A DNA stretch of 64,000 bases from Candidatus Manganitrophus noduliformans (GTDB lineage: Bacteria; Nitrospirota; Nitrospiria; SBBL01; Manganitrophaceae): positions 682,001 to 746,000 of the forward strand of contig NZ_VTOW01000001.1 of assembly GCF_012184425.1 (NCBI RefSeq), read 5' to 3'. The notes beneath the pieces are model-generated. The model made no database searches. It worked only from the letters and a program-made list of their open reading frames with translations, and was not told the origin of the DNA. Made by a program: the position numbers and the translations under genes. Positions 39,370 through 57,833 of the stretch are shown here, in pieces (positions within the stretch are counted from its first letter, which is position 1; each line of letters starts with the position of its first letter).

Positions 39370-41148
39370 ATGATCCCCAAGGGAGGCGTGGGGATCGAGA
39401 TGATCGTCTACGGCGGACAAGAAGAGGTGGTGGATGCCTCCGAACAACTTGCTCAACTTCAAGCGCTTTTCTTCTCTTTGGAAAAAGAAGGCTTCCGCGA
39501 TCATGATCGGATCGTGGAGCTTTTGATCGAGTGGGGGGTCTTCGAGTCGGCCGTCGCCGACGCCCTCTCTCCCGATTTCGATTCGGACGGTCCCCTCTTA
39601 CGGCGGCTTCGGCAGGCGAGCCTTCTGATCGGACATCTCTTCTATCGAAGCGCGCGGAGCGCGCAATTTCAGACCGATGACATACCGTCCCGGCTCGGCC
39701 GCGCGCTTAAAGACCCGCTTTTCTCCAATCTTCCTCCAAAAATCGCCCTGCGTGTTCCGGAAGGATATGCCTATTACGGCCTCTATCCAGAAACCTATCT
39801 GGAGTCGGCGCTTCGATTGGTTCGGGAAGTCGGTCCGCAGCCGGCGGTCTGCATCGGCATCCGGAGCATCGGCACCAGCCTCTCCGCGGTGGTGGCCGCC
39901 CCCCTCGAAGCCAATGGTTCTTCGATCTGCTCCTATACGGTCCGGCCGCGCGGCCATCCGTTCGACCGATTCCTCCGCCTCTCTTCCTCCCTTGAAAAAG
40001 AGCTTGCCGGGAAAAAGGGCGCTTACTTCCTCATCATCGATGAAGGGCCCGGCCTGAGCGGTTCCTCGATGACCTCCGTCGCGGAAAAGCTCTCCGAGAT
40101 CGGGATTGCCGATGATCGGATTCTCCTCTTTCCAAGCTGGGAGCCGGACGGAACCCGCTTCCGCTCCGAGGCGGCGCGGGGGTGCTGGCCGAGACACCGG
40201 AAGATCGCCACCTCCTTCGAGGAGATTTTTCTGAATCGAGAGAAATATTTCTCCTCCCTGCCGCAAGGCCCGTTTGTTGATTTTTCCGGCGGCCGATGGC
40301 GCTCTCACGTTTATCAGAGTGAATTGAGCTATCCTCCGGTTCAGCCTCAACATGAGCGGCGGAAGTATCTGTCGCTCGAATCAAAAGAGAAACCGCGCCT
40401 GCTCAAGTTCGCCGGCCTCGGACGTTACGGCCGGTCGAAACGCGAACGCGCGGAGCGATTGGCCGGCGCCGGGTGGGGCCCGCCGGTGGTCGGTCTCGTG
40501 CGCGGCTTTCTCGTGACGGAGTATGTAGAAGGCGCTCCGGTTTCCGGAGGGGAAGCCGATTCCTCGTTGATCGAGACGATGGCGCGTTATCTCGCGTTTC
40601 TTAGGGAGACGTTCCCGGTCTCCCGCCGCCGGTCCTTCGATGAGATGATCGAAATGATGCGGATCAATCTCAGCGAAGGGCTGGGAAAAGGATGGGAGGG
40701 GCCGCTGGATCGGCTCGGGCGATTTCGATCCCTCTTTGAAAAGGAGCGGCCGGCGGCGATCGACGGAAGGATGTTCCCGCACGAGTGGCTTCAAACTTCC
40801 GCGGGATATCTGAAAACCGACGGCGTGGATCACCACGACGATCATTTTTTCCCCGGCGGTCAGGAGATCGCCTGGGACCTCGCCGGCTGTTGTGTCGAGT
40901 TCGGCTTCAGTGTCCGCGACGAGGAACGATTTCTCGGCCGGTATCAGGCGCTCGCAAACGACCCGCGTCTCCTCGACCGGCTGCGCTTTTATAAAGTGGC
41001 CTACCTGGCCTACCGCCTCGGGTACGCGACCCTGGCCGCGGAGGCGCTCGGTCCCGCCCCGGATGCAGGGCGGTTCAAATCTCTTTCTCTGCGTTACCGG
41101 GCCGCGCTTCTCGGCGAACTCGACGCCATCTCCTTGCAACCGATGTGA
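39370..41148 (+). CDS. Phosphoribosyltransferase-like domain fused to a kinase-like C-terminal domain
   Basis: 592 residues. The middle (about 155-245) has a PRTase-like core: GIRSIGTSLSAVVAAPLE, then FLIIDEGPGLSGSSMTSV at 220-237, in the place of a PRPP-binding loop. The C-terminal third (DGVDHHDDHFFPGGQEIAWD and LAGCCVEFG) looks like a degenerate choline/aminoglycoside-kinase catalytic segment. Residues 1-120 are helical and unassigned. It follows pncB by 74 bases. The start is uncertain: ATG 39370 or ATG 39400. I know of no named family with this order; function unknown. Confidence 0.65.
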   Translation: MIPKGGVGIEMIVYGGQEEVVDASEQLAQLQALFFSLEKEGFRDHDRIVELLIEWGVFESAVADALSPDFDSDGPLLRRLRQASLLIGHLFYRSARSAQFQTDDIPSRLGRALKDPLFSNLPPKIALRVPEGYAYYGLYPETYLESALRLVREVGPQPAVCIGIRSIGTSLSAVVAAPLEANGSSICSYTVRPRGHPFDRFLRLSSSLEKELAGKKGAYFLIIDEGPGLSGSSMTSVAEKLSEIGIADDRILLFPSWEPDGTRFRSEAARGCWPRHRKIATSFEEIFLNREKYFSSLPQGPFVDFSGGRWRSHVYQSELSYPPVQPQHERRKYLSLESKEKPRLLKFAGLGRYGRSKRERAERLAGAGWGPPVVGLVRGFLVTEYVEGAPVSGGEADSSLIETMARYLAFLRETFPVSRRRSFDEMIEMMRINLSEGLGKGWEGPLDRLGRFRSLFEKERPAAIDGRMFPHEWLQTSAGYLKTDGVDHHDDHFFPGGQEIAWDLAGCCVEFGFSVRDEERFLGRYQALANDPRLLDRLRFYKVAYLAYRLGYATLAAEALGPAPDAGRFKSLSLRYRAALLGELDAISLQPM

Positions 41149-41402: not shown

Positions 41403-42452
41403 ATGCATTCAAGCTTTGATCCAGAGCGAAAGAAAATTTTGGTCACGGGCGGCGCCGGTTTTCTCGGCTCGCATCTTTGCGGGCGGCTCCTTGCGCAGGG
41501 ACATCAGATCCTCTGCCTGGACAATTACTTCACAGGGTCAAAGGAGAACATCCGTTCTTTCCTCGATCATCCCCGGTTTGAAGCGATCCGGCACGACATC
41601 GTTCATCCGATCGATCTGGAGGTCGATCGGATTTACAATCTTGCCTGCCCCGCCTCGCCGGTCCATTATCAGTTCGACCCGGTCCGCACCGTTCAGGCGA
41701 ACGTGCTCGGCGTCACCCATATGCTGGAATTGGCGCGACGGACCAAAGCCCGCATCCTCCAAGCCTCCACCTCGGAGGTTTATGGAGACCCCGAAGTCCA
41801 CCCCCAGCCGGAGTCTTATTGGGGAAACGTCAACCCGATCGGCCCTCGAAGCTGTTATGACGAGGGAAAGCGGGTGGCAGAGACCCTGATGATGGATTAC
41901 CACCGGCAGTACCGGATCGATATCCGGATCGTCCGGATCTTCAACACCTACGGACCCGCCATGGCCCCCAATGACGGACGGGTGGTGAGCAACTTCATCC
42001 TTCAAGCGCTTCAAGGAAATGAGATCACGGTCTACGGCGACGGCAGCCAGACCCGCTCCTTCTGCTACGTCGATGATCTGATCGAAGGGATCATCCGGAT
42101 GATGGAGGCGCCCGGTTTGACCGGGCCGGTGAATCTGGGGAATCCGGAGGAGTTTACCGTGCTGGAGCTGGCCGAGAAGGTCATCTCCCTCACCGGGTCC
42201 CGCTCCAAGATCGTTCATAAGCCCCTCCCTCAGGACGATCCGACACAGCGCCGTCCCGATATTACCTCGGCGAGAGAATCGCTTTCCTGGGAGCCGAAGA
42301 TCCGGCTCGAAGAGGGGCTCAAAAAGACAATCGCTTATTTTGAACAATATGGTCTTGCAACGAAGGCCCTTCCCGTCCGAGCGGCCCGAACGAAACAAAA
42401 CGGCAACGCGGCCTCACGCCTGCCGACCGGCGCGCTGCGCCGGGCCGGCTAA
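41403..42452 (+). CDS. UDP-glucuronate decarboxylase (UDP-xylose synthase), extended SDR
   Basis: 349 residues. The nucleotide loop is [12 protein letters not shown]. The [20 protein letters not shown] segment is characteristic of UXS enzymes, as are [20 protein letters not shown] and the catalytic YDEGK. It converts UDP-glucuronate to UDP-xylose. The C-terminal 30 residues are extra and basic. A strong terminator follows, so it is a separate transcript. UDP-xylose is a plausible donor for the nearby glycosyltransferases and fits the beta-xylosidase-like gene. Confidence 0.92.
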
Positions 42453-42665: not shown

Positions 42666-44468
42666 ATGATAGATCAAACAACAAATCCGGAGTGGCTTTC
42701 GCAAGGACGGCGGGCGCTGGTCTTTATCCGCCCTTTCCGCGGCGTTGTATTCGTGATCCTCGGATTGACGCTGGGGGGGGCGGCGCTGAGCGCGGTGGAG
42801 CCGCTTGTTCTCAAATATCTCTTTGACGAACTCGGCGGCGGGGGGACCCTCCAGACGGTGGGGCTCGCCGTCGGCGGGCTGCTGGCGCTGGGGCTCGGCC
42901 GTGAGGCGATCCTCGCCCTCTCCAGCTGGCTCACCTGGCGGGTCCGGCTCGGGGTCCACTACGGGCTGCTAGAAGCGACGGTCGACCGCCTCCATTCGCT
43001 CCCCCTGACCTTCCACAAAGAAGAAAGCGTCGGCGGGATCATGACCAAGCTCGATCGGGGAATTCAGGGGTTTCTCCAAGCGCTCAGCGAAATCGCTTTT
43101 AATGTCCTGCCGGCGCTGGTCTACCTCGCCCTCTCTTTTGTTCTGATGCTCCGGCTCGACGGGCGGCTTTCGTGGGTCGTGCTCGCCTTCACCCCGCTCC
43201 CGGCGTTGATCGGCGCCTGGGCGGCCGAGCCGCAGACCCGGCGGGAGCGGACGCTGCTCGACCGCTGGGCCAAGATCTACTCGCGCTTCAATGAAGTCCT
43301 CTCCGGCATCATGACCGTGAAGAGCTTTGCGATGGAAGATGAGGAGAAGCGCCGTTTCCTGAGCGGCGTCCATGAAGCGAACGAGGTGGTGGTGCGCGGG
43401 GTCGGTTTTGATTCCGGCGTCGGCGCGGCGAAGAACGGGATCGTCATGCTGGCCCGGATCGCGGCGATCGCCTTCGGCGGCGTTTTGATTCTCCGAGGCG
43501 AGATGACCGTCGGTACACTCGTCGCCTTTCTCGGCTACGTCGGCGGCCTCTTCGGACCGGTCCAGGGTCTCACCGGGATTTACCAAACCCTCCGGCGCGC
43601 TTCGGTCTCTCTCCAGACAATCTACGCGATTCTCGACGCGCAGGACCGGCTGGCCGATCCGCCGAACGCGCGGGAAGTCGAATCGCTCCGCGGGGAGGTC
43701 CTCTTCGCCGGCGTCGGCTTTGCCTACCATGAAAAAAAACCGATCGTTCGGCGGATCGACCTCTATGTCCGGCCGGGGGAGATGATCGCCCTCGTCGGCC
43801 CGAGCGGCGCCGGCAAGACGACCCTCATGGCGCTGCTCCAGCGGCTCTACGACCCGACCGCCGGCGCGATCCTCGTCGACGGGGCCGATCTGCGGACCCT
43901 CAAGCAGCGATCGCTCCGGCGGCAGATCGGCGTGGTCCTTCAGGAGGCGCTGCTCTTCAACGATTCGGTCCGAAACAACATCGCCTACGGCAAACCGGGC
44001 GCCTCACAGCGTGAGATCATCGAAGCGGCCCAGGCGGCCCATGCGCACGAATTCATCGAGCGTCTTCCGGAAGGATATGAGACCCTGGTGGGGGAGCGGG
44101 GAGGCCGGTTCTCGGCGGGAGAGCGGCAGCGGATCGCGATCGCGCGCGCGCTGCTGAAGAATCCGCCGATCCTCATTTTGGATGAAGCGACCTCGGCGCT
44201 CGACGCGGAGTCGGAGGCGCTGGTTCAAGAAGCGCTGGCGCGGCTGGTCAAAGGACGGACCACCTTCGTCATTGCCCACCGCCTCTCTACCGTTGTCGGC
44301 GCCGATCGAATCTTGGTCCTCAAGGGGGGGGAGATCATCGAGAGCGGCGATCACGAAGCCCTGATGAAGGCCGACGGCTATTACGCCTCTCTCGTCCGGC
44401 GGCAGACGCAGGGGCTTCTCGCAAGCGCCTCTTCCACCCCGCTGGCCTCCCTCAACGATCCGATCTGA
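42666..44468 (+). CDS. MsbA-like ABC exporter, fused permease-ATPase
   Basis: 600 residues: a six-helix exporter domain (about 20-310) and an ATPase domain with Walker A GPSGAGKTT, Walker B ILILDEATSALDAES and H-loop IAHRLSTV. The signature loop reads FSAGERQR rather than LSGGQ. Such half-transporters dimerise and move lipids, glycolipids or peptides. Its location between UDP-xylose synthase and the glycan cluster makes it a candidate exporter of the cluster product, an inference. The 3' end overlaps the convergent hydrolase gene by 17 bases. Confidence 0.88.
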   Translation: MIDQTTNPEWLSQGRRALVFIRPFRGVVFVILGLTLGGAALSAVEPLVLKYLFDELGGGGTLQTVGLAVGGLLALGLGREAILALSSWLTWRVRLGVHYGLLEATVDRLHSLPLTFHKEESVGGIMTKLDRGIQGFLQALSEIAFNVLPALVYLALSFVLMLRLDGRLSWVVLAFTPLPALIGAWAAEPQTRRERTLLDRWAKIYSRFNEVLSGIMTVKSFAMEDEEKRRFLSGVHEANEVVVRGVGFDSGVGAAKNGIVMLARIAAIAFGGVLILRGEMTVGTLVAFLGYVGGLFGPVQGLTGIYQTLRRASVSLQTIYAILDAQDRLADPPNAREVESLRGEVLFAGVGFAYHEKKPIVRRIDLYVRPGEMIALVGPSGAGKTTLMALLQRLYDPTAGAILVDGADLRTLKQRSLRRQIGVVLQEALLFNDSVRNNIAYGKPGASQREIIEAAQAAHAHEFIERLPEGYETLVGERGGRFSAGERQRIAIARALLKNPPILILDEATSALDAESEALVQEALARLVKGRTTFVIAHRLSTVVGADRILVLKGGEIIESGDHEALMKADGYYASLVRRQTQGLLASASSTPLASLNDPI

Positions 44469-45420
44469 CCGGCGCGACGCCGTCCCCTTCGGGTCGCATC
44501 GGCTCGAGAATCCGCCGAGGCATGTCGGTCTCCTTTTTCTCACCGAGGACATACCGCCGGACCACCCACTCGGCGAATTCGGCAAACTCCTCCGGCACCA
44601 AGGGAGGGCTTGTGTGATGCGGGAGGCGCCCCCGCGAGGGGGGGGTGAAGCAGAGAGTGATCGTCAGCTCGAATTCGGCGAGTTGCGCCATTTGATGATC
44701 GAACCATGCGATGGCGCCGGGCCGGTGCCAATCGGCCCAGCTCAACCCGGTCCGGAGTTTTTTCACCCCCATCCGCCGCAGCCAGGCGACCGCCGATTCA
44801 AGGCGGTGATCCTGAAAGTGAAACCACTGGCAGATCCCCATCTCGGGGTTGAAACAATCGAGCGCCGGTTTCGGCGTGCCGTTGTCCCGAACCAATCCCA
44901 TATAGAAATGCCGATAATATGAACTTCCCTCGCTCTCTTTGTGGCGGGTCGTCGCCTCCCAGGCCGGGGGGAGATCGAGAAGGCTGTACCAGAAGAGCCG
45001 CTCGACTCGACCTAATAAAAGCGCCGCCGTCCGCTGCAATCCAAAGCGTTGAACTTCATCCGCCCCGAAGGTGGAGACCCCCACCTCGGTGACCCAAACC
45101 GGAAGGTCGGTCACCTTCTCGATCGCTTCGATCTTCTTCGGCCACTCTTCGAGTTGCCAGTGATTCCAGTCGAGCGGAAAGCCGTGGACCGCCACGACAT
45201 CGACCGACGCCAGCAAGCCGTGACGGCCGAGAAGGGCGATGAAACTCGGATCGATCGGCGAGATCCCTCCCAACACCCGGCGCAAGGAAGGGCAGAGGGC
45301 GCGCACCCGCTCCGCCGCCGACCGGGTCATCCGCACATACTCCTTCCACTCCGGGTCGATCGTAAAATCCCAATGAGAAAGATTGTTCGGCTCGTTCCAG
45401 AACTTGATCGCTTCGATCAT
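44452..45420 (-). CDS. Beta-xylosidase-like glycoside hydrolase, apparently circularly permuted TIM barrel
   Basis: 322 residues, no signal peptide, so cytoplasmic. The general acid motif FWNEPN is at residues 8-12 (Glu10) and the nucleophile motif WVTEVGVS at 109-116 (Glu112). These are strand 4 and strand 7 elements of clan A hydrolases. The stretch that usually comes first (GVKKLRTGLSWADWHRPGAI, then LTITLCFTPPSRG and FAEFAEWVVRRY) is at 218-290, after the catalytic half. ATG 45420 is chosen; the frame is open to 45483. It may trim xylose from a cluster intermediate. Confidence 0.72.
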   Translation of the reverse strand: MIEAIKFWNEPNNLSHWDFTIDPEWKEYVRMTRSAAERVRALCPSLRRVLGGISPIDPSFIALLGRHGLLASVDVVAVHGFPLDWNHWQLEEWPKKIEAIEKVTDLPVWVTEVGVSTFGADEVQRFGLQRTAALLLGRVERLFWYSLLDLPPAWEATTRHKESEGSSYYRHFYMGLVRDNGTPKPALDCFNPEMGICQWFHFQDHRLESAVAWLRRMGVKKLRTGLSWADWHRPGAIAWFDHQMAQLAEFELTITLCFTPPSRGRLPHHTSPPLVPEEFAEFAEWVVRRYVLGEKKETDMPRRILEPMRPEGDGVAPVRSDR

Positions 45421-45923
45421 CGTTTCGCTCACGCTTGCCCTGCTGCGGGGGAGAATGCAAATCCGACGCCGCTCCTCTTCCATACGGAAGGAGCGCTATT
45501 TTTCCGCTGAAAGAATTTTCCGAGGTGAATGGTTTGTTGAACTCTCTGCAAATCTTTTTCGAATATTGCGGCGATGTAAGCGGGATTGCAGAGACGGTGG
45601 AAGCGGGGAGGCGATACATGACCTCGCGCCATGACAAAATAAATTGTGAGGAGACCCGTTCGATTCTCGGTAGAGGAAGAGGCGTTTTGAACTTCATCTT
45701 TGATTACGGAGGGATCGATTTCGCGTTGCGGCGCTTCTTCGTGTAGTGGGGCTCACATCCTTCTTGTGGACATCCTGTTCATCTTTCTGTTGATAACCTT
45801 TTCGGTCTTTCTCTGTCCCATGCCGTGGTGTCGACATGAAGGTTCGGGGCATGTCTCTTGCTTTTATTTTCGAGCAACTCACAATTTGGATGAACCCATT
45901 TTTAAGAAGGTAAGGAGTCCTAC
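45421..45923. other. Divergent intergenic region, 503 bases
   Basis: Spacer between the minus-strand hydrolase and the plus-strand twelve-gene run. It is visibly more AT-rich than its surroundings. I see no convincing gene. It contains the sigma-54-type element listed separately at 45847-45862. Confidence 0.5.
45847..45862 (+). promoter_or_regulatory. Candidate sigma-54 (-24/-12) promoter of the twelve-gene cluster
   Basis: GGGCATG-TCTC-TTGCT (45847-45862) has the invariant GG and GC separated by exactly 10 bases and otherwise matches TGGCACG-N4-TTGCT at most positions. Transcription would start near 45873, 50 bases before the first gene. An RpoN activator site was not identified. Confidence 0.5.
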
Positions 45924-47042
45924 ATGAAGAAGCAGATCCTCATCAGCGGCGGCGCGGGTTTCATCGGCTCTCATCTGGCCGATGAACTCCTCGCGCACGG
46001 CTATCGCGTCCGCGCCCTCGACAATCTTTCGGAGCAGGTCCACGGCCCCCGCGCGGGGCGGCCCGATTATCTACATCCCGATGTGGAATTGATCGTGGGA
46101 GACGTTCGCGATCGGGCGGCGGTCCGGCGCGCCTTGGAAGGGGTCGATGCGGTCTACCATTTTGCGGCGGCGGTCGGCGTCGGCCAAAGCATGTACGAGA
46201 TCGCGCGTTACACCGAGGTGAACAACCTCGGCACCGCCGTCCTCCTGGAAGCGTTGATCGAGCGGCCGGTGGAGCGGCTGATCGTGGCGTCGAGCATGAG
46301 CTTGTACGGCGAGGGGCTCTACCGGGCGGCCGACGGCCGCCTGATCTCCGAGTCGGAGCGGAGTCTCCCGCAGCTCAAGGCCTCCGAATGGGAGGTCCGG
46401 GATGCCGAAGGTAAAATCCTCGAGCCGATCGCCACGCCGGAGACGAAGCCGCCTTGTCTCTCTTCGGTTTATGCCCTCTCCAAATACGATCAAGAGCGGA
46501 TCTGTCTGATGATCGGGCGCGCCTATCGTTTCCCGGCCGTCGCGCTGCGCTTCTTCAATGTCTTCGGGACCCGGCAGGCCCTCTCCAATCCTTATACCGG
46601 CGTTCTGGCGATTTTCGCCAGCCGATTGTTGAACGGCAATCGGCCGCTGATCTTTGAAGACGGCCTTCAGCGGCGCGATTTCGTCAGCGTCTATGATGTG
46701 GCGCGCGCCTGCCGGCTGGCGTTGGAAGTGCCGGAGGCGGCCGGGGAGGCGTTGAACATCGGAAGCGGCCGCTCTTATACGATTCGGGAGGTGGCCGACC
46801 GGATGGCGGCGGCGCTCGGAAAAGAGGGGATTCAGCCTGAAATCACCGGACAATACCGGGCCGGGGACATCCGGCACTGCTTCGCCGATATCACCCGTGC
46901 CCGAAAGGTCCTCGGGTACGAGCCTCGCGTCACATTGGAGGAAGGGTTGGTCGAGTTGGCGTCATGGTTGAAGGGGCAGGTGGCGATCGATCGTGTTTCG
47001 GATGCCCGCGCGGAACTCGCTGCCCGGGGATTGACGCGATGA
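45924..47042 (+). CDS. NAD-dependent nucleotide-sugar epimerase/dehydratase (extended SDR)
   Basis: 372 residues. GGAGFIGSHLADELL is the NAD loop, ASSMSLYGEG carries the serine region, and YALSKYDQERI gives the catalytic YxxxK. An insert near 150-175 (ESERSLPQLKASEWEVRDAE) is longer than in GalE. The family epimerises or dehydrates nucleotide sugars. It is the first gene of the twelve-gene run; AAGGTAAGGAG precedes the ATG. It overlaps the next epimerase by 4 bases. Exact sugar unknown. Confidence 0.87.
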   Translation: MKKQILISGGAGFIGSHLADELLAHGYRVRALDNLSEQVHGPRAGRPDYLHPDVELIVGDVRDRAAVRRALEGVDAVYHFAAAVGVGQSMYEIARYTEVNNLGTAVLLEALIERPVERLIVASSMSLYGEGLYRAADGRLISESERSLPQLKASEWEVRDAEGKILEPIATPETKPPCLSSVYALSKYDQERICLMIGRAYRFPAVALRFFNVFGTRQALSNPYTGVLAIFASRLLNGNRPLIFEDGLQRRDFVSVYDVARACRLALEVPEAAGEALNIGSGRSYTIREVADRMAAALGKEGIQPEITGQYRAGDIRHCFADITRARKVLGYEPRVTLEEGLVELASWLKGQVAIDRVSDARAELAARGLTR

Positions 47043-48157
47043 TCAACGGAAAAAAGGAACGACCCGTATTGATTACGGGAGGGGCCGGCTTCATCGGGAC
47101 GAACCTTGCGCACCGCCTTCTTCAGGCGGGACACCCGGTGTTGATTTTCGACAATCTCTCTCGGGCCGGGGTGGAGCAGAATCTTCGCTGGCTGCGCGAG
47201 CGGCACGGAAGCCGCCTGCAGGTGACGGTGGCCGACGTGCGCAACGCATTTGCGCTGCAGCGGGCCGTCCGGCAGGCCGCCTCCGTTTTTCATTTCGCCG
47301 CGCAGGTGGCGGTCACGACGAGCCTTGCCGAGCCGATCGACGATTTCGAGGTCAACGCGCGCGGGACGCTGAATCTGCTCGAAGCGATCCGCGTTTTGGA
47401 GAGCCCTCCCCCCCTCCTCTTCACATCGACAAATAAAGTCTACGGCGAGCTGGAGGAGCTCCCCCTCCGGCAGGGGATCAAGCGTTACGAGCCGGAAGCG
47501 CCGGAGATCCGGACCTACGGCATCGGCGAATCCCGGCCGCTCGAATTTCACAGCCCTTACGGCTGTTCGAAAGGGGCGGCCGATCAATACGTCCTCGACT
47601 ACGCGCGCACGTACGGCATCCCCGCGGCCGTCTTCCGGATGAGCTGCATCTACGGCCCGCATCAGTTCGGGACCGAAGATCAGGGATGGGTCGCCCATTT
47701 CATGATCCGCGCGATGGAGAGCCGGCCGATCACCCTCTTCGGCGACGGCCGGCAGGTTCGGGACGTTCTTTATGTCGAAGATCTGATCGACGCATTCCTC
47801 CTCGCTCAGGAGCGGATCGACTTCCTCTCGGGGAAGGCGTTCAACATCGGCGGCGGGCCGTCGAACACGACCAGTCTCTTGGAGTTGATCCATCTGATCG
47901 AAGCCATCGGAGAGAGGCCGCTGACGACGCATTTCGAGCCGTGGCGGCTCGCCGATCAGCGCTACTATGTCTCGGACACCCGCCGATTCCAATCGGCGAC
48001 CGGCTGGTCGCCCCGGGTCGGCGTTGAAAAAGGGGTCCGGTCGCTCTATGCGTGGCTGCGGGAGGCCCGCTCCGAAAAGCCTTCGCTTCGCGGGGCCCGC
48101 GCGCGCAGCGCGTCGCAAATACGAAGCGGACGCGCCGCCGGAAAGGGGGCGGCATGA
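47039..48157 (+). CDS. Nucleotide-sugar epimerase, CDP-paratose 2-epimerase-like
   Basis: 372 residues. The NAD loop is TGGAGFIGTNLA, and TSTNKVYGELEELPL and YGCSKGAADQYV hold the catalytic residues. The stretch CIYGPHQFGTEDQGWVAHF resembles CDP-tyvelose/paratose 2-epimerases. The true start is ATG 47039 (ATGA overlap with the preceding stop); the longer frame upstream is a shadow. Its product would be an unusual hexose, probably an activated donor for one of the five glycosyltransferases. Confidence 0.87.
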   Translation: MINGKKERPVLITGGAGFIGTNLAHRLLQAGHPVLIFDNLSRAGVEQNLRWLRERHGSRLQVTVADVRNAFALQRAVRQAASVFHFAAQVAVTTSLAEPIDDFEVNARGTLNLLEAIRVLESPPPLLFTSTNKVYGELEELPLRQGIKRYEPEAPEIRTYGIGESRPLEFHSPYGCSKGAADQYVLDYARTYGIPAAVFRMSCIYGPHQFGTEDQGWVAHFMIRAMESRPITLFGDGRQVRDVLYVEDLIDAFLLAQERIDFLSGKAFNIGGGPSNTTSLLELIHLIEAIGERPLTTHFEPWRLADQRYYVSDTRRFQSATGWSPRVGVEKGVRSLYAWLREARSEKPSLRGARARSASQIRSGRAAGKGAA

Positions 48158-49467
48158 AGGTCGCGCTGGTCAATCCCCATTGGACCTTCGACGGAAGCAT
48201 CTACTTCGGCTGCCGCGAGGTCCATCTCCCGTTGGAATACGGCTACGCCAAGGCCTTGCTGGAGCGAGAGGGGGCGGAGGTCCTCATCATCGACGGCTTG
48301 GCGGAGGGGCTTTCGCGGGAAGAGATCCGCGCCCGCGCGGCAGCCTTCGCCCCCGATGTGACCGTGATCACCACCGCGCCGAGCTATCTCTTCTGGCGCT
48401 GCGCGCCGCCGGAGCTGCGGGTTCCGATCGAAACAGTTTCCGATCTGCGGCCGGTCGGCGGAGCGTTGATCGCCATCGGCCCGCACGGCTCGACGACCCC
48501 GACGATCACCTTGAAGAAGCTCGGGGTCGACGCCGTGATCCTCGGCGAAGCGGAGGAGATCTTGTCGATTCTCATCCGGAAACCGATCGGGGAGTGGGGC
48601 GAGGTCCCGTCGGTCTGCTACCGCGCGGGAGACCAGATCCGCGTCCAGGGGGGGCCGCATGCCTGCGACATGGCGGCCCTGCCGCCGCTCCGCTGGTCGC
48701 GCGAGAGCCTCGCCCGTCATCCGCACCATCACCACCGGTTCGAGGCCCCTCCCGACGGCCCCGGCGCCGAGATGGAGACCTCGCGCGGCTGCCCCTATCA
48801 TTGCACCTTCTGCGCGAAGGAGAACTTCCGGGACGACTATCGCAAGCGCCCCCTGCCGGTCATCTTGGAAGAGCTCGACGGCCTCATCGAAGCGGGGGCG
48901 ACCTATCTCTACTTCATCGATGAGATCTTCCTCCCGAGCAAGCCGCTCCTGGAAGGGATCGCGGAGCGGGGGATTCGCTTCGGCGTCCAGACCCGGATCG
49001 ATCTCTGGAGCCCGCCGATGCTGGCGCTCCTGGGCCGGGCCGGCTGCGTGTCGATCGAAGCGGGGGTCGAGAGCATCAGCCCGGAGGGGAGGAAGTGGCT
49101 CGATAAGCCGAGCCGGCTCTCCACCGACGAAATCGTCGCGCGTCTGATCGATGCCAAGCGGCAGGTCCCCTTCGTTCAGGCGAACCTCCTCGAAGCCCAC
49201 ATGGACGATCCGGCGGCGATCGAAGCGTGGCGGGAGCGCCTGGCGAAAGAGGGGATCTGGGCAAACAAGCCGGTTCCGCTCTTTCCCTACCCCGGTTCCC
49301 CCGACTATGTCCGCAAATGGGGCCTACCCGACGAGCAGGCGTGGGAGCGGGCGCACGCGCACTATCTTCGAGAGTACGAAGCATTCAGCGATATTCAGGA
49401 CCAACGGCCCATTCCGTTACAGATGCTGGAATCGAATACCGGAGAACACGAAAGGCGGTCGGCTTGA
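48154..49467 (+). CDS. B12-binding domain radical SAM protein of the saccharide cluster
   Basis: 437 residues. Residues 1-145 form a cobalamin-binding-like Rossmann domain (MKVALVNPHWTFDG, IAIGPHGSTTPT near 110). The radical SAM cluster motif CPYHCTFC is at 213-220, followed by IDEIFLPSKPLLEGI and a GVESISPEGR motif near 310. Relatives methylate unactivated carbons or rearrange substrates. It overlaps the preceding gene by 4 bases. I remember this family in TIGRFAMs as B12-binding/radical SAM 'rhizo-twelve system' (TIGR04295, from memory). Substrate unknown; a sugar or cyclitol is inferred. Confidence 0.87.
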   Translation: MKVALVNPHWTFDGSIYFGCREVHLPLEYGYAKALLEREGAEVLIIDGLAEGLSREEIRARAAAFAPDVTVITTAPSYLFWRCAPPELRVPIETVSDLRPVGGALIAIGPHGSTTPTITLKKLGVDAVILGEAEEILSILIRKPIGEWGEVPSVCYRAGDQIRVQGGPHACDMAALPPLRWSRESLARHPHHHHRFEAPPDGPGAEMETSRGCPYHCTFCAKENFRDDYRKRPLPVILEELDGLIEAGATYLYFIDEIFLPSKPLLEGIAERGIRFGVQTRIDLWSPPMLALLGRAGCVSIEAGVESISPEGRKWLDKPSRLSTDEIVARLIDAKRQVPFVQANLLEAHMDDPAAIEAWRERLAKEGIWANKPVPLFPYPGSPDYVRKWGLPDEQAWERAHAHYLREYEAFSDIQDQRPIPLQMLESNTGEHERRSA

Positions 49468-49494
49468 CTCCCCGCCTTCCGTCTTTTGATCTTT

Positions 49495-50631
49495 ATGGCG
49501 ATTCATCATGAAAAAGCGCCCCGCCGCATTTTGATGACGGCCGACACCGTCGGCGGGGTCTGGACCTATGCGCTGGAGCTGGCTCGCGCCCTCGGCCGGC
49601 ACGGCGTGGCGGTATCCCTTGCGACAATGGGGGCGCCGATTCGACCGGAGCAACGGGCCGAAGCCGAAGCGATGCCGAATCTCACCCTTTATCCGAGCGC
49701 GTTCAAGCTGGAGTGGATGGAGTCGCCGTGGGAGGAGGTCGCCCGGGCGGGCGAATGGCTGCTCGATTTGGAGGGGCAAATTCAACCCGATCTGATCCAT
49801 CTCAACGGCTACGCGCACGGGGCGCTCCCTTGGAAAGCGCCGGTCCTGGTCACCGGGCATTCCTGTGTCCTCTCCTGGTGGCGGAGTGTGAAGGGAGAGG
49901 AGGCGCCCGCCGCCTGGGACCGCTACCGTGAAGCGGTTTCGCGAGGGCTGCAGAAGGCCGATTGTGTCGTGGCGCCGACCGGGGCGATGCTCGCAGAGCT
50001 CCGGAAATATTACGGTCCGCTGCGGAGAGACCGCGTGATCCCCAACGGACGAGAGGCCTCGTTCTTTACGGCGCATCCGAAGGAGCCTTTGATCTTCACC
50101 GCGGGGCGGCTCTGGGACGAGGCGAAGAATGTCGCCCTGCTCGACCGGATCGCACACGATCTCCCGTGGCCGGTTTTTGTCGCGGGAGAGTCGCGTCATC
50201 CCGACGGGAAGGAAGTTGCGTTCAACGCCCTCCGGCCGCTCGGCCGGCTCTCCGCGGCCGCGCTCGCCGGCTGGCTTTCGCGGGCGGCGATTTATGTTCT
50301 CCCGGCCCGGTATGAACCGTTCGGTCTCGCCCCTCTCGAAGCGGCGTTATCGGGCTGCGCGCTCGTTCTCGGCGATCCGCCGAGTCTTCGGGAGGTATGG
50401 GGAGAGGCGGCGCTGTTCGTCCCTCCCGATGATCCGGAAGCGCTCCGGGCCGTCCTCCGGCGATTGATCGACGATCCTCTTCTGCGGGAGTCGATCGCCT
50501 GCCGGGCCCGCGCTCAGGCCGACCGTTATACGTCCGACCGGATGGCGGCGGGGTATCTCATGCTGTATCAAAAGATGATCAACGAACAGGAGGCATTTAC
50601 GTGCGGATCGTCCTCTTCTATCACTCATTGA
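49495..50631 (+). CDS. GT4-family glycosyltransferase
   Basis: 378 residues, GT-B fold. The N-terminal domain has RRILMTADTVGGVWTYALEL, typical of GT4 acceptor-side loops. The donor domain has FTAGRLWDEAKN and the PARYEPFGLAPLEAALSGCA motif with the EPFGLxxLEA glutamates near 270. It transfers a sugar from a nucleotide-sugar donor and would act at the inner membrane face or in the cytosol. Its 3' end overlaps the next gene by 31 bases, the largest overlap in the run. Confidence 0.87.
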   Translation: MAIHHEKAPRRILMTADTVGGVWTYALELARALGRHGVAVSLATMGAPIRPEQRAEAEAMPNLTLYPSAFKLEWMESPWEEVARAGEWLLDLEGQIQPDLIHLNGYAHGALPWKAPVLVTGHSCVLSWWRSVKGEEAPAAWDRYREAVSRGLQKADCVVAPTGAMLAELRKYYGPLRRDRVIPNGREASFFTAHPKEPLIFTAGRLWDEAKNVALLDRIAHDLPWPVFVAGESRHPDGKEVAFNALRPLGRLSAAALAGWLSRAAIYVLPARYEPFGLAPLEAALSGCALVLGDPPSLREVWGEAALFVPPDDPEALRAVLRRLIDDPLLRESIACRARAQADRYTSDRMAAGYLMLYQKMINEQEAFTCGSSSSITH

Positions 50632-51713
50632 TCTCGGATTGGAACCACGGGAACGCCCATTTCTTGCGCGGTGTGGCGGGCGAGCTCATCGCGCGCGGCC
50701 ACGAACTTCGCATCTTCGAGCCGCGCGACGGGTGGAGCCTCCGCAGCCTCCTCGCGGAGCAGGGGCCCGCGGCGATTGACCGCTTTCAGCGGGCCTACCC
50801 GGGGCTGCGAAGCGCTTTTTACGATCCGGCCGCGATCGATCTCGATGAAGCGCTCGACGGGGCCGACCTCGTCGTGGTCCACGAATGGAATCCCCCCGAA
50901 CTGGTCGGGCGGATCGGACAACATCGCGCCCGCAGCAGGGGCTACCGGCTTCTCTTCCACGACACCCATCATCGAAGCGTCACCGCGCCGGAAGAGGTGG
51001 CCCGGTACGATCTCGCCCATTACGACGGCGTCCTCGCCTACGGGCGGGTGATCCGCGATCTCTATCTTTCCCGCGGTTGGGCGGCCGCCGCCTGGACCTG
51101 GCATGAAGCGGCCGACACCCGCCTCTTTCGCCCGATTAAGGGGAAGCGGGAGGGGGATCTTGTCTGGATCGGCAACTGGGGGGACAACGAGCGGACCGAG
51201 GAGCTGCACACCTTCCTTTTGGAGCCGGTCAAAGCGCTCGGTCTCAATGCCCGTGTTCACGGGGTCCGCTACCCCGAAGAAGGCCGCCGCGCCCTCACCG
51301 AGGCCGGGATCGGCTATGCCGGATGGCTTCCGAACGATGAAGTGCCGGAGGTCTTCGCCCGCTTCCGGGTGACGGTCCATATCCCGCGGCGGCCGTATGT
51401 TCGGGCTCTTCCCGGCATCCCGACCATCCGCCCCTTCGAGGCGCTCGCCTGCGGTATCCCGCTGATCTCGACCCCCTGGGACGACAGTGAGGCGCTGTTT
51501 ACCCCCGGCGCCGACTTCCTCGTCGCCCGGACAGGGGAGGAGATGAAGCGGCATTTGAAAATGCTCCTCAACGATCGCTCCTCTGCGGAAGCGCTGGCCG
51601 CCCACGGCCGGGTGACGATCCTGGCGCGGCATACCTGCGCCCACCGGGTCGATCAGCTCCTTACGATTTTTGCGGGTCTGAATCTACCAGAAGAAAAGGA
51701 GGTTTCCGCATGA
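50601..51713 (+). CDS. CgeB-like glycosyltransferase (copy 1)
   Basis: 370 residues. GTG 50601 follows ACAGGAGG. The opening RIVLFYHSLISDWNHGNAHF, the central IGNWGDNERTEELHTFL and the donor-site PTIRPFEALACGIPLIS with a DFLVA motif match the CgeB/DUF3880-like GT-B proteins of spore and surface glycan clusters. It is one of four related copies in the cluster. The specific linkage is unknown. It overlaps the next copy by 4 bases. Confidence 0.82.
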   Translation: MRIVLFYHSLISDWNHGNAHFLRGVAGELIARGHELRIFEPRDGWSLRSLLAEQGPAAIDRFQRAYPGLRSAFYDPAAIDLDEALDGADLVVVHEWNPPELVGRIGQHRARSRGYRLLFHDTHHRSVTAPEEVARYDLAHYDGVLAYGRVIRDLYLSRGWAAAAWTWHEAADTRLFRPIKGKREGDLVWIGNWGDNERTEELHTFLLEPVKALGLNARVHGVRYPEEGRRALTEAGIGYAGWLPNDEVPEVFARFRVTVHIPRRPYVRALPGIPTIRPFEALACGIPLISTPWDDSEALFTPGADFLVARTGEEMKRHLKMLLNDRSSAEALAAHGRVTILARHTCAHRVDQLLTIFAGLNLPEEKEVSA

Positions 51714-52813
51714 ACCGGCGGCCCCGGATCGCCTTTTTCGGATCGAGCCTCGTCTCCGCGTATTGGAACGGGGCGGCGACCTACTATCGCGGCATCATCC
51801 GCGCCCTGCACCGGCGGGGCTACCAGATCGCTTTTTATGAGCCGGACGCCTACGGCCGGCAGGCGCATCGGGATATCCCCGATCCGCCGTGGGCCGAGGT
51901 GGTCGTCTATCCCAACCAGGAGGCGGCCGTGGCGAAGGCGCTGGCGCAGGCGCGCGGCGCCGATCTGATCGTCAAGGCGAGCGGCGTCGGGGTCTTCGAT
52001 GAACTTCTGGAGTCGGCCGTGCTTGAAATGCGCGGGCCCGATACGGAGGTGATCTTCTGGGACGTCGATGCCGCCGCCACCCTCGATCGGGTCGGGAAAG
52101 ATCCCGCCGATCCGTTCCGATCGCTCATCCCCCGTTATGATCTGATCTTGACCTACGGCGGCGGCGATCCGGTGGTGCGGGCCTATCGGTCGCTCGGGGC
52201 GCGGGCCTGTGTGCCGATCTACAATGCGCTCGATCCGCAGACGCATCATCCGGTCCCCCCCGATCCGAGGTTCGAAGGGGAGCTCGCCTTTCTCGGAAAC
52301 CGCCTTCCCGACCGGGAGGCGCGGGTTGAAGCGTTTTTCTTCAAAGCGGCCGAAGCCCTTCCGGCCGCCCGGTTTCTCCTGGCGGGGAGCGGGTGGGGGG
52401 ACAAAGGAATGCCGCCGAACGTTTACGCCGTCGGCCATCTCTACACGCGGGATCACAACGCTTTTAACTGCACCCCGCGGGCGGTCCTGAACATCACCCG
52501 GGAGAGCATGGCGCGCAACGGTTTCTCTCCGGCGACCCGGGTCTTCGAGGCGGCGGGGGCGGCGGCCTGTCTGATCACCGATGCCTGGGAAGGGATTGAA
52601 CTCTTCCTCAATCCGGGAGAGGAAGTTCTCGTCGCGCGGGACGGGGCCGATGTCGCCGAGCAGCTTCGGTCGCTGACGCCCGAGCGCGCCCGCGCCATCG
52701 GAGAAGCGGCGCGGCGGCGAATTTTGGCGGAGCATACCTACGCCCATCGGGCGGCGCAGCTGGAGGCGCTGCTCGAAGGGAGAGAAACGGTCCAGACGGG
52801 GGGGATGCCATGA
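51710..52813 (+). CDS. CgeB-like glycosyltransferase (copy 2)
   Basis: 367 residues. It has the opening IAFFGSSLVSAYWNGAATYY, a central LAFLGNRLPDREARVEAFFF, the NITRESMARNGFSPATRVFE donor-site stretch and AAGAAACLITDAWEGIELFL. Same domain plan as the flanking copies. It overlaps both neighbours by 4 bases, so expression should be tightly coupled. Probably adds one residue of the oligosaccharide. Confidence 0.82.
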   Translation: MNRRPRIAFFGSSLVSAYWNGAATYYRGIIRALHRRGYQIAFYEPDAYGRQAHRDIPDPPWAEVVVYPNQEAAVAKALAQARGADLIVKASGVGVFDELLESAVLEMRGPDTEVIFWDVDAAATLDRVGKDPADPFRSLIPRYDLILTYGGGDPVVRAYRSLGARACVPIYNALDPQTHHPVPPDPRFEGELAFLGNRLPDREARVEAFFFKAAEALPAARFLLAGSGWGDKGMPPNVYAVGHLYTRDHNAFNCTPRAVLNITRESMARNGFSPATRVFEAAGAAACLITDAWEGIELFLNPGEEVLVARDGADVAEQLRSLTPERARAIGEAARRRILAEHTYAHRAAQLEALLEGRETVQTGGMP

Positions 52814-53934
52814 GCGGATCAAGGATGTCGATCGTGATCTTCGGCCTGTCGATTACCTCCTCCTGGGGGAACGGACATGCCACCACTTACCGAAGTCTGG
52901 TCCGGGGACTCCGCGCGCGGGGCCATGATTTCACTTTCTTCGAACGAAATGTTCCCTGGTATGCCGAAAACCGCGATCTCCCGCGTCCGCGCCATGGGAG
53001 GTTCGAACTGTATGAGAATCTGGAGGAGCTGAAAGAGCGTTTCACCGAACAGGTCGAAGAGGCCGATCTGGTGATCGTCGGATCGTACGTTCCGCAGGGG
53101 ATTGCGATCGGGGAGTGGGTGACCTCCACCGCGCGGGGGGTGACGGCGTTTTACGATATCGACACCCCGGTGACCCTCGCGAAGCTCGATCGCGGCGAAA
53201 TCGACTACCTCTCCAAGGCGCTGATCCCCCGGTATCACCTCTATCTTTCCTTCACCGGCGGTCCGATTTTAAAACGTCTGGAGCGGGAGTACCGATCGCC
53301 GATGGCCCGGCCGTTGTACTGCTCGGTTGATCCCGATCTTTACTACCCGGAGGAGGCCGAGCCGACCTGGTCGCTCGGCTACATGGGGACCTACAGCCTC
53401 GACCGGCAGGAGACGCTCGATCGTCTATTGATCGAGCCGGCGCGGCGATGGGGCGAGGGATCGTTCGTCGTCGCCGGCTCCAAATATCCCGAAAGCCTCT
53501 CCTGGCCTGCTAATGTCGACCGGATCGAGCATCTGCCGCCGTCAAGGCACCGCGCCTTCTACAACGCGCAGCGGTTTACGCTGAATGTGACCCGGGCCGA
53601 TATGATCCGGGCCGGTTATTCGCCGAGCGTCCGTCTCTTCGAGGCGGCCGCCTGCGCGACCCCGATCATCAGCGATCTCTGGCCGGGGCTGGAGACATTT
53701 TTCAAGCCGGGGGAGGAGATCCTTCTCTCCCGCTCCCCCGAAGAGACCCTCCGCACTCTGCGCGAGATTCCCGAAGAGACGCGGCGCGCCATCGGATTGC
53801 GGGCCTGCGACCGGGTGCTGGCGGAGCATACCGCCGTTCAGCGGGCGGCGGAATTGGAACGGTATGCCTGCGAGATTTTAAATCGCCGCCGGCCGGAGCC
53901 GGAGCCGACCACTTTGGGTAGGGTTGCATCATGA
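52810..53934 (+). CDS. CgeB-like glycosyltransferase (copy 3)
   Basis: 374 residues. The opening MSIVIFGLSITSSWGNGHAT closely matches that of copy 4 at 55890 (LVIFGLTISSSWGNGHAT), so these two are the most alike. The shared core includes ERNVPWYAENRDL, YDIDTPVTLAKLDRGEIDYL, LGYMGTYSLDRQETL and NVTRADMIRAGYSPSVRLFE. 4-base overlaps with both neighbours. Donor and acceptor unknown. Confidence 0.84.
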   Translation: MSGSRMSIVIFGLSITSSWGNGHATTYRSLVRGLRARGHDFTFFERNVPWYAENRDLPRPRHGRFELYENLEELKERFTEQVEEADLVIVGSYVPQGIAIGEWVTSTARGVTAFYDIDTPVTLAKLDRGEIDYLSKALIPRYHLYLSFTGGPILKRLEREYRSPMARPLYCSVDPDLYYPEEAEPTWSLGYMGTYSLDRQETLDRLLIEPARRWGEGSFVVAGSKYPESLSWPANVDRIEHLPPSRHRAFYNAQRFTLNVTRADMIRAGYSPSVRLFEAAACATPIISDLWPGLETFFKPGEEILLSRSPEETLRTLREIPEETRRAIGLRACDRVLAEHTAVQRAAELERYACEILNRRRPEPEPTTLGRVAS

Positions 53935-55280
53935 AGCGTGTGAAACGGGAAGAAAAAGGAGGGGGTCGCGCCATCGCCCCCGCCTCCGGAAAACTCGGTG
54001 TTTTGATTCCGGGGGTCGGCGGCGCGGTCTCGACGACGCTGATCGCGGGGGTTCACCTGATCAACAAAGGGCTGGCGAAACCGGTCGGCTCGCTGACGCA
54101 GATGGAGCGGGTCCGGCTGGGGAAGCGCTCCCGGCCCCGCTGGAAAGGGATCAAGGAGCTCGTCCCGCTCGCCCCCCTGACCGATCTGGTCTTCGGCGGA
54201 TGGGATATCTTCCCCGACGACGGCCATGAAGCGGCGATCAAGGCGGGGGTCCTCCCTGCGGAGCAGTTAAAGGAGGTGCGGGAAGAACTCCGGTCGGTCC
54301 GGCCCCTTCCCGCCGTCTTCGATCCGAAGTTCCTCCGGAATTTGCGCGGCCCTCATGTCAAACAGGGGCGGCGGAAAATCGATCTCGCCGAGGCGTTGAT
54401 GAAAGAGATGGAGGAGTTCAAGACGGCGAACGACCTCTCCCGTCTCGTCATGGTCTGGTGCGGATCGACCGAGGTTTATCAGGAACAGAAAGAAGTCCAC
54501 CGGACGATCGAAGCGTTCGAGAAGGGATTGAAAGAGAACGATCCCGACATTTCCCCCTCGATGATCTACGCCTATGCGGCGATCCGGCTCGGCATCCCTT
54601 ATGTGAACGGGGCGCCGAACACGTCTGTTGAGATTCCGGCGCTCGCCGAGACGGCCAGGGCGCGGATGGTCCCGATCGCGGGGAAAGATTTCAAGACCGG
54701 CCAGACCTTGATGAAGACGATTCTGGCGCCGGGCCTGCGGGCGCGGATGCTCGGGGTGCGCGGGTGGTTTTCGACGAACATCCTCGGCAACCGGGACGGC
54801 GAGGTCCTCGACGATCCCGGCTCTTTCCATGCCAAGGAGGTGACGAAATCGTCGGTTCTCAGCTCGATCCTCGATTCCGGCCTCTACCCCGAGCTCTACA
54901 ACGCGCTCTACCACAAGGTGCGGATCGAATATTATCCCCCGCGCGGCGACGCCAAGGAGGGATGGGACAACATCGACATCTTCGGCTGGATGGGGCAACC
55001 GATGCAGATCAAGATCAACTTCCTCTGCCGCGATTCGATCCTGGCGGCGCCGGTGGTCCTCGATCTGATTCTTTTCATGGATCTCGCCCGGCGGGCGAAG
55101 CTCAAAGGGACGCAGGAGTGGCTCTCGTTTTATTTCAAAGCGCCGATGGCGCGGCCCGATCTCGCCCCGATGCATGACCTCTTCGTCCAACATCTCAAGC
55201 TGACCAACACGCTGCGGATTCTGGCCGGCGAAGAGGTGCTGCATCATTCGGGGCTCGATTATTATGAGGAAGCGGCTTGA
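53931..55280 (+). CDS. Inositol-3-phosphate synthase
   Basis: 449 residues, NAD-dependent. It converts glucose 6-phosphate to inositol 3-phosphate. The Rossmann loop is LIPGVGGAVSTTLIAG (25-40). Core motifs are VNGAPNTSVEIPAL, GKDFKTGQTLMKT and the STNILGNRDG...FHAKEVTKSSVL catalytic stretch near 285-315. The N-terminal 20 residues are basic and extra. Placed within a glycosyltransferase run, it must supply inositol for the cluster product. An unusual 49-base spacer follows it. Confidence 0.92.
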   Translation: MKRVKREEKGGGRAIAPASGKLGVLIPGVGGAVSTTLIAGVHLINKGLAKPVGSLTQMERVRLGKRSRPRWKGIKELVPLAPLTDLVFGGWDIFPDDGHEAAIKAGVLPAEQLKEVREELRSVRPLPAVFDPKFLRNLRGPHVKQGRRKIDLAEALMKEMEEFKTANDLSRLVMVWCGSTEVYQEQKEVHRTIEAFEKGLKENDPDISPSMIYAYAAIRLGIPYVNGAPNTSVEIPALAETARARMVPIAGKDFKTGQTLMKTILAPGLRARMLGVRGWFSTNILGNRDGEVLDDPGSFHAKEVTKSSVLSSILDSGLYPELYNALYHKVRIEYYPPRGDAKEGWDNIDIFGWMGQPMQIKINFLCRDSILAAPVVLDLILFMDLARRAKLKGTQEWLSFYFKAPMARPDLAPMHDLFVQHLKLTNTLRILAGEEVLHHSGLDYYEEAA

Positions 55281-55284
55281 GGGC

Positions 55285-55316: not shown

Positions 55317-55329
55317 GAAGGCAAGAAGA

Positions 55330-55893
55330 ATGGAATTTCACTTCTGTTGGGTCGATGATGAGAAGACGTTGGCGCTGGGGTGTTATCCGACCGATGCCGA
55401 TCTTCGGGTGTTGTTCCGGGAGGGGATCAATGCCGTCCTCAGCCTTCAGGAACACCTGATTGAGGGGGAGCCGGCCATGATGTGTCTTCACGGGGTGCGC
55501 CGCCTCGCCTGGGCCAACGTGCCGATTCAGGACGGCGGGGATGGGGGGTGGGACGGGGTTCCGACCGTCGAGGCATTGGCGGCGGCGGTGGCACAGATCC
55601 GAGCCTGGCACCAGGAGGGACGCCGCGTCTACCTTCACTGCCGCCAGGGGATCGGCCGGGCGCCGACGGTCGCGATCGCCTATCTGATCCTGGCGCGGGG
55701 ATTCCACATTGCCCACGCGATTGCGCGGGTGGTCGAGCGACATCCGGGAAGCGATCCGAGCGTCTACCAGCTCGGGGTCCTGATCGATTATGTCCGGCAG
55801 CGGTATGAGACGGTCCATCAGCGGAGCGCCCTCCGGCCGACGGCTTTTGCGGGCAAAGGGAACGGGATGCAATCGACGGGGAAAACGAAATGA
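55330..55893 (+). CDS. Dual-specificity/tyrosine phosphatase-like protein
   Basis: 187 residues. The PTP loop HCRQGIGRAPT is at 103-113, with nucleophile Cys104 and Arg110. An acidic residue in IQDGGDGGW near 68 may act as general acid. Dual-specificity-type phosphatases can hydrolyse phosphoprotein or phospho-inositide/sugar substrates. Directly after inositol-3-phosphate synthase and without an IMPase gene in the cluster, it may release free inositol or dephosphorylate the glycan intermediate; this is inferred. It overlaps the next gene by 4 bases. Confidence 0.83.
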   Translation: MEFHFCWVDDEKTLALGCYPTDADLRVLFREGINAVLSLQEHLIEGEPAMMCLHGVRRLAWANVPIQDGGDGGWDGVPTVEALAAAVAQIRAWHQEGRRVYLHCRQGIGRAPTVAIAYLILARGFHIAHAIARVVERHPGSDPSVYQLGVLIDYVRQRYETVHQRSALRPTAFAGKGNGMQSTGKTK

Positions 55894-56981: not shown

Positions 56982-56998
56982 TGAAGGAGAGGAGACCG

Positions 56999-57802
56999 AT
57001 GTGGGGAATTATCCCGGCGGCGGGGGTCGGAAGCCGCATTCAACCGCTCGCCTTTTCCAAAGAGCTGTTACCGGTCGGGAGCCGGCTCGACGGCGAGGTC
57101 GAGCGGCCCCGCGCGGTGAGCGAGTATCTGATCGAGCGGATGATCCTGGCCGGGGCCGACAAGATTTGTCTGATCATCTCCCCCGGCAAGTCGGACATTC
57201 TGGAATATTACGGCGGCCGTGTCTCCTCGGCGCACCTCTGCTACACCGTTCAGCCCCGGCCCGCCGGTCTCTGCGACGCGATCTTCTCCGCGCTGCCGCT
57301 GATCCACCCGGAGGAGCCGGTGCTCGTCGGGCTTCCCGATACCATCTGGTTTCCGGAGACGGGGCTGGCGCGGCTGCCGGCGGAGGGGCTCTCGTTTCTC
57401 CTCTTCCCGGTGGCGCGGCCCGAGTTCTTCGACGCGGTGGTGACCGACGGGGCGGGAGCGGTTTTGAAGATCGAGGTCAAGCAGCCGAAGCCGTCGACCC
57501 ACTGGATCTGGGGGGCGTTCCGGCTTCCCGGCGGGGTGCTGCGCGATCTCTTCGAGCTTTGGTGCGCGCGGGACCGCCGGGACGAGTATATCGGAACCCT
57601 CGTGAACGCCTACATCGAGCGCGGCGGGGCGGTCCGTGGGGTCCCGGCGGGCGAAGCGTATGTCGACGTCGGAACGATCCACGGCTACCGCGAGGCGATC
57701 AAGCTCCTCAGCGCGCGGGGCGCGGAGCGGATGCGGCCCGGTCTTCGGCAGCGGCCGCAAAAGAGCGATCCGACGGAGACCGATTCGCGGCGGGTCGCTT
57801 GA
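56999..57802 (+). CDS. Sugar-1-phosphate nucleotidyltransferase-like protein
   Basis: 267 residues. The opening MWGIIPAAGVGSRIQPLAFS-KELLPVG is the nucleotidyltransferase G-loop and lysine motif, though GVGSRIQPL replaces the usual GxGTRLxPL. VLVGLPDTIWF holds the metal-site aspartate. Start at 56999 follows GGAGAGGAG. Relatives activate hexose 1-phosphates (NDP-sugars) or inositol 1-phosphate (CDP-inositol). Given the inositol synthase in the cluster, either a hexose or an inositol phosphate may be the substrate. Confidence 0.83.
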   Translation: MWGIIPAAGVGSRIQPLAFSKELLPVGSRLDGEVERPRAVSEYLIERMILAGADKICLIISPGKSDILEYYGGRVSSAHLCYTVQPRPAGLCDAIFSALPLIHPEEPVLVGLPDTIWFPETGLARLPAEGLSFLLFPVARPEFFDAVVTDGAGAVLKIEVKQPKPSTHWIWGAFRLPGGVLRDLFELWCARDRRDEYIGTLVNAYIERGGAVRGVPAGEAYVDVGTIHGYREAIKLLSARGAERMRPGLRQRPQKSDPTETDSRRVA

Positions 57803-57833
57803 AGGTTTCTCTTTGTTGAGGTGAGAAAGCGCA

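Follow-up and report, generated by a model that had tools for sequence, protein, structure and literature searches.

Within the window, the whole 64,000-nucleotide stretch of Candidatus Manganitrophus noduliformans (Nitrospirota) DNA that was analysed, lies a gene encoding a protein with a phosphoribosyltransferase (PRTase)-like middle and a choline-kinase-like C-terminal half. This PRTase-kinase gene is inherited, and lost, together with the TIGR04290/TIGR04295 gene cluster, and its family is now tied to an unstudied glycan pathway. Slightly better than even, in our estimate, are the chances that the gene encodes a dedicated enzyme of a conserved uncharacterised pathway building an inositol-containing, methylated oligosaccharide.

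A 592-aa open reading frame (ORF) is present at 39370-41148 (+). Judged from its sequence relatives, the ORF is a real gene, since those in the genus, in other Nitrospirota genera and in Alphaproteobacteria are open throughout. The sequence-only reading had quoted three strings from this ORF (GIRSIGTSL, LIIDEGPGLSGSSMTS and DGVDHHDDHFFPGG), all of which were located in it. The coordinates given there held for the ORF but not for the start at 39370. The first residues of all aligned relatives are M(L/I)VYG(D/G), which places the start at the ATG at 39400, 30 nt further in, and yields a protein of 582 aa (39400..41148, +) that is open in every intact relative with the shared start M(L/I)VYG. The gene is single-copy in its own genome. 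The N-terminal region (residues 1-115; 39400..39744, +) is probably helical and matches no known domain.

Inside the genus Manganitrophus, the identity of the protein to its relatives was 94%, 69%, and 57%. Family members were also found in four further sampled Nitrospirota genomes (G135, G152 with two copies, G162, and G259) and on 89 alphaproteobacterial plasmids, the latter with 31-36% identity across most of the length. The plasmid hosts were Sinorhizobium, Roseomonas, Azospirillum, Rhizobium, Ensifer, and Ciceribacter, and the plasmid relatives are annotated as hypothetical where annotation exists. Full-length relatives overall, from Nitrospirota and plasmids, showed 31-58% identity. No model of Pfam or NCBIfam matched the protein or 18 relatives, which bore out the initial impression that no named family has such a plan. 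PHROGs gave no meaningful match for the protein or its relatives, and relatives were absent from the phages and viral contigs searched. Two weak Nitrospirota matches were rejected, namely a Dyp peroxidase with a chance motif in G121 and, in G137, an AAA_33 protein that has a stretch resembling the end of the kinase domain and is not a relative. As far as models and open papers were searched, the family is undescribed, and its parts are of known kinds.

To characterize the C-terminal half, a profile of residues 300-582 was built from 22 sequences and searched against the PDB. The best match was the LicA choline kinase 4r77, with an E-value of 3.1e-4 over 217 of 281 positions, followed by the choline/ethanolamine kinase 3dxq (E 0.074); the third entry was a ribosomal protein (E 0.39). 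The Pfam model PF01633 reached E 0.11, below the Pfam threshold, in one family member. The choline-kinase-like domain spans residues about 319-545 (40354..41035, +). In the alignment with 4r77, the nucleotide-binding lysine K336 (in LLKFAGL; 40405..40407, +) stands opposite the K of YIVKFFG, and the same register places the catalytic Asp D455, E462, and the second metal Asp D474 in the catalytic segment (40762..40821, +). K336, D455, and D474 are invariant, and the metal-binding Asn position is occupied by E462, with Glu kept in at least 90%. Because the active-site positions are conserved and a single ligand is systematically altered (Asn to Glu), the kinase-like domain is not randomly decayed; the segment had been called degenerate and kinase-like, and only the second word stands. 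A choline-kinase (APH-type) fold is a well-supported prediction for the C-terminal domain. An APH alignment built from Nitrospirota gave no signal, and that alignment was probably too heterogeneous.

The PRTase-like core comprises residues 120-255 (39757..40164, +). Its first motif, the PPi-loop-like IGIRSIGTSLSA (residues 152-163; 39853..39888, +), falls on the PPi loops of PyrR and Apt in profile alignments, and G153, R155, I157, G158, L161, and A163 are invariant in 22 sequences. The second, the PRPP-loop-like DEGPGLSGSS (residues 214-223; 40039..40068, +), pairs with DDVLFTGRT in PyrR and with DDLLATGGT in Apt; DEGPGLSGS is invariant in the 22 sequences, and the final S is replaced by T in three. 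The two loops are the most conserved part of the whole protein. The PRPP-like loop, FLIIDEGPGLSGSS, has the acidic pair and S-G-S-S present and conserved and is one residue longer than the canonical loop. Within single hhalign alignments of ~90 and ~115 columns to PyrR and Apt, both loops were found in the order of type I PRTases, and the match extended to the loop spacing, to an Ala-rich helix behind the first loop and to a strand that ends in R(P/K). The hhalign score summed over five PRTase families was higher than in all 100 of 100 column shuffles, with each reversed profile lower, and an earlier four-family sum exceeded 200 of 200 shuffles. Taken individually, the family comparisons were weak (z 1.4-3.0), and one unrelated family also reached z 3.0 via a 13-column match. 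These results moderately support the middle domain as a divergent type I PRTase that putatively binds PRPP, and we regard a PRTase fold as probable. The pairing of PRTase and kinase in one chain, as first proposed, stands reasonably well, with a significant profile match for the kinase and with ordered loops and moderate profiles for the PRTase; structure prediction lent the latter no support.

The glycine-rich loops could instead come from another alpha/beta fold, in which case the protein would be a kinase with an unrelated N-terminal acceptor-binding part. This we consider doubtful. It is favored by the weakness of the individual profile scores and by the searches that retrieved no PRTase: none of the Pfam or NCBIfam PRTase models matched in 18 family members, and a PDB profile search with the PRTase part returned none. 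In hhalign comparisons of single sequences with about 400 local proteins, the known PRTases went unranked. Of the FGGY kinases, compared as another possible match for the GIRSIGTSL loop, a single sequence passed filtering. AlphaFold run without an alignment gave a pLDDT of 38.6 for the full length and 51.5 for residues 105-290, neither interpretable, and Foldseek with the model of residues 105-290 returned only RNase H-like noise. The fall of this low-confidence fragment on RNase H-like folds might be counted for a different fold, but the model was too poor to count, which makes the Foldseek result unusable in either direction. Against a chance resemblance stand the agreement of loops, order, spacing, helix, and strand end with PyrR and Apt, and a five-family sum above that of every shuffle and every reversed profile.

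Somewhat less plausible to us is a middle domain that has the PRTase fold and senses PRPP or another phosphosugar, gating the kinase-like domain, so that the protein would do no chemistry other than to phosphorylate inositol or an intermediate of the oligosaccharide. Regulatory PRTase folds exist, as in PyrR and PurR, and PyrR would serve as a model; the loop DEGPGLSGSS differs from the canonical DDxxTGGT, and of the two halves of the protein the kinase one has the stronger support. However, the acidic pair and the entire loop stay unchanged among relatives of about 31-58% identity, a stricter constraint than sensors usually need, and the kinase might just as well have been inactivated by the Asn-to-Glu change.

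Upstream of the gene, the two neighbors noted in the sequence-only reading are in place: pncB lies at 37964-39295 and has Pfam NAPRTase domains, and the adenosine-specific kinase at 37380-37886 matches PF04008 (E 1e-75). A nucleotide or NAD salvage enzyme working with nicotinate phosphoribosyltransferase and the adenosine-specific kinase is very improbable: the gene and pncB are co-directional, the 104 bp that separate them contain no terminator-like site, and the order is the same in two related genomes (G002 and G004), but outside the genus pncB is no neighbor, elsewhere the neighbors of the family are glycan synthesis genes, and the strain Manganitrophus GAC4 has lost the PRTase-kinase gene and the cluster and kept both pncB and the adenosine-specific kinase at 95-98% identity, a deletion that already largely refutes salvage. 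The pncB and adenosine-specific kinase genes adjoin the PRTase-kinase gene within Manganitrophus only. Consequently, the nucleotide theme drawn from these neighbors did not hold, and the proposed check of neighborhood conservation led away from pncB to a conserved company of glycosyltransferase, epimerase, methyltransferase, and inositol-phosphate-synthase genes; the pncB neighborhood proved a misleading guide to the role of the gene. In other Nitrospirota (L042 16284-18520 and L047 6994-9127), the place of pncB immediately before the homolog is taken by a GT4 gene and a gene for a protein of ~345-370 aa, and by eye this protein resembles CelD/BioF (FemAB-like) acyltransferases. In G002 (L053 7433-8089, -), a genuine phosphoribosyltransferase (COG1926-like, LDDGIATGASM) lies between pncB and the PRTase-kinase homolog; it is absent from the window.

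The association with the cluster was examined across 296 Nitrospirota genomes. TIGR04295 scored above its cut-off in six, and strong matches to the PRTase-kinase family occurred in exactly those six. As the six genomes come from three families, the independent events are fewer than six; the agreement is nonetheless complete. Compared with the window, GAC4 (L002, CP114561.1) is missing ~39433-40981 (1.5 kb, most of the PRTase-kinase gene) and also ~42969-58419 (15.4 kb, reaching from the ABC transporter into the beginning of the methyltransferase), and retains the adenosine-specific kinase, pncB, and the UXS gene, which lies between both deletions, at 94-98% identity. A whole-genome search of G003, in which the remnant is identical to that of GAC4, found no other copy of the PRTase-kinase gene. 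We read the double deletion as co-loss of the gene and the cluster; the GAC4 deletions amount to a natural partial knock-out. The gene is likewise linked to the cluster in Sinorhizobium, Ensifer, Azospirillum, and Roseomonas. It is not part of the core, being absent beside the clusters of R. phaseoli, R. etli, A. fabrum, Paracoccus, and Tistrella. Where a cluster lacks the gene, its second epimerase measures about 660-680 aa (L251 7443-9485, L254 7644-9635, L253 7458-9491, and L257 7443-9482), with ~320 aa of no Pfam match preceding the epimerase part; this extension is possibly the otherwise separate 'beta-xylosidase' domain.

In the window, the cluster runs downstream of the PRTase-kinase gene. 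The gene is followed by a UDP-glucuronate decarboxylase-type sugar-nucleotide enzyme (UXS; 41403..42452, +), whose homologs in Roseomonas and rhizobial clusters carry this annotation, and by an ABC transporter with fused ATPase and permease (42666..44468, +), which was recognized by sequence and by synteny with G002 and G004 and occurs in clusters of the genus only. A 'beta-xylosidase' TIM-barrel protein follows on the opposite strand (44452..45483, -; PF11790 weak), with homologs in nearly all clusters and a true start further in than the listed ORF. On the plus strand come two NAD-dependent sugar-nucleotide epimerases/dehydratases (45924..48157), the TIGR04295 B12-binding radical SAM protein (B12_rSAM_oligo; 48052..49467; 691.7 bits against a cut-off of 400), four glycosyltransferases (49486..53934; one GT4 and three of the Glyco_trans_1_2 type), myo-inositol-phosphate synthase (Ino1; 53931..55280; PF07994 E 5e-95 and PF01658 E 5e-32), a dual-specificity-type phosphatase (55330..55893; PF00782 E 1e-12), a fifth glycosyltransferase (55890..56981), a nucleotidyltransferase (NTP_transferase; 56849..57802; PF00483 E 1e-9), and the TIGR04290 methyltransferase (57834..58589; 390 bits against a cut-off of 300). 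The relatives in Sinorhizobium, Ensifer, Azospirillum, Roseomonas, and other Nitrospirota lie amid much the same genes. The dual-specificity-type phosphatase of the Manganitrophus cluster contrasts with a histidine phosphatase in the alphaproteobacterial clusters, apparently a case of non-orthologous replacement in the step that acts on inositol phosphate.

On plasmids, the PRTase-kinase family tracks the sub-module of Ino1 (inositol-3-phosphate synthase) and phosphatase rather than the cluster core. Records of the methyltransferase, the PRTase-kinase family, and Ino1 numbered 66, 66, and 66 in Sinorhizobium, 5, 5, and 5 in Azospirillum, and 3, 3, and 3 in Ensifer. In Roseomonas, 9 records of one of these stood against 10 and 10 of the others. 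In Rhizobium, 35 plasmid records held the methyltransferase and 5 each the PRTase-kinase family and Ino1. In the stretches read of the R. phaseoli, R. etli, A. fabrum, Paracoccus, and Tistrella clusters there was no Ino1, no phosphatase, and no PRTase-kinase family member, and the strains of A. ramasamyi and A. lipoferum each carry the family member on one plasmid and Ino1 on another. The link to inositol is not universal, since the Sphingobium cluster has Ino1 and the phosphatase and no PRTase-kinase copy in the stretch read, and Ino1 is absent from the stretches read of the Nitrospirota genomes G135, G152, G162, and G259.

Ino1 converts glucose-6-phosphate to inositol phosphate, and a phosphatase can release inositol. 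The cluster as a whole probably builds an inositol-containing sugar chain. In the pathway we propose, Ino1 would form inositol phosphate and the phosphatase would yield inositol, the PRTase-kinase protein would attach the 5-phosphoribosyl group of PRPP to inositol or to a glycoside of it, and the kinase-like domain would phosphorylate or hold the same acceptor. Completion of the oligosaccharide would then fall to the glycosyltransferases, the sugar-nucleotide enzymes, the B12 radical SAM protein, and the methyltransferase. PRPP-dependent ribosylation of an inositol acceptor is the mechanism we favor, as a tentative proposal by analogy with butirosin biosynthesis. Beside several clusters lie genes for DUF1003, sigma factors, Mn catalase, Ku/LigD, treZ (malto-oligosyltrehalose trehalohydrolase), ferritin-like proteins, and peroxiredoxin. 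Because the TIGR04290 cluster recurs in such stress islands, its product is suggested to be a stress protectant, which we consider probable. The flanks of L252, L253, L254, and L255 are stress islands that also hold UdgX and cold-shock genes. If all these elements were combined, the family could represent an enzyme class of its own, in which a fusion of PRTase-like and choline-kinase-like parts ribosylates inositol or an inositol glycoside with PRPP within a widely distributed pathway, and the product an undescribed inositol-ribose-containing methylated oligosaccharide that involves a B12 radical SAM step and protects rhizobia, azospirilla, Roseomonas, and Mn-oxidising Nitrospirota from stress; in this full form the proposal is unlikely. 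The analysis provides a testable assignment for proteins that are encoded on many Sinorhizobium symbiotic megaplasmids and are so far labelled hypothetical. The homolog in S. meliloti 1021 lies at about 253.4-255.1 kb of pSymB, and as S. meliloti is genetically tractable, comparison of a deletion mutant with the wild type could reveal the product.

In the open literature, we found no paper on the TIGR04290/TIGR04295 cluster; a paper on inositol in Ensifer aridi was set aside, its subject being inositol catabolism. The window cluster resembles the cluster of these two NCBIfam hypothetical equivalogs in having both proteins above cut-off, whereas NCBIfam has no model for the PRTase-kinase protein. 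Like type I PRTases (PyrR, Apt, the COG1926 type, and PF15609), the middle domain has PPi-loop-like and PRPP-loop-like motifs in the same order; unlike them, it is matched by no PRTase family model, and its DEGPGLSGSS loop is one residue longer. Where PyrR reads LIGIRTGGVYLA, the PRTase-kinase family reads CIGIRSIGTSLSA. By eye, both motifs resemble stretches of the Ter-associated PRTase_2 proteins (PF15609), the first VVVIGFAETATGLG and the second VVLVDDEITTGNT, and the profile alignment with PF15609 covers the first motif only. With LicA (4r77), PF01633, and the APH superfamily, the C-terminal half shares the lysine, the catalytic Asp, and the second metal Asp, and the terminal D-x-x-W-D-(I/L)-A segment of 4r77 is retained. 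It differs from LicA and the choline/ethanolamine kinases in the Glu in place of the metal-binding Asn, in the extra WEWL and KTDxxDH motifs, and in the fusion to a PRTase-like region. A conceptual parallel is found in butirosin biosynthesis, in which BtrL carries out PRPP-dependent ribosylation of neamine and the BtrP step then removes the 5-phosphate. The ribosylation of a cyclitol glycoside followed by 5-phosphate removal parallels our proposal, and most TIGR04290/TIGR04295 clusters contain a phosphatase gene that would fit this logic; the parallel is one of pathway logic alone.
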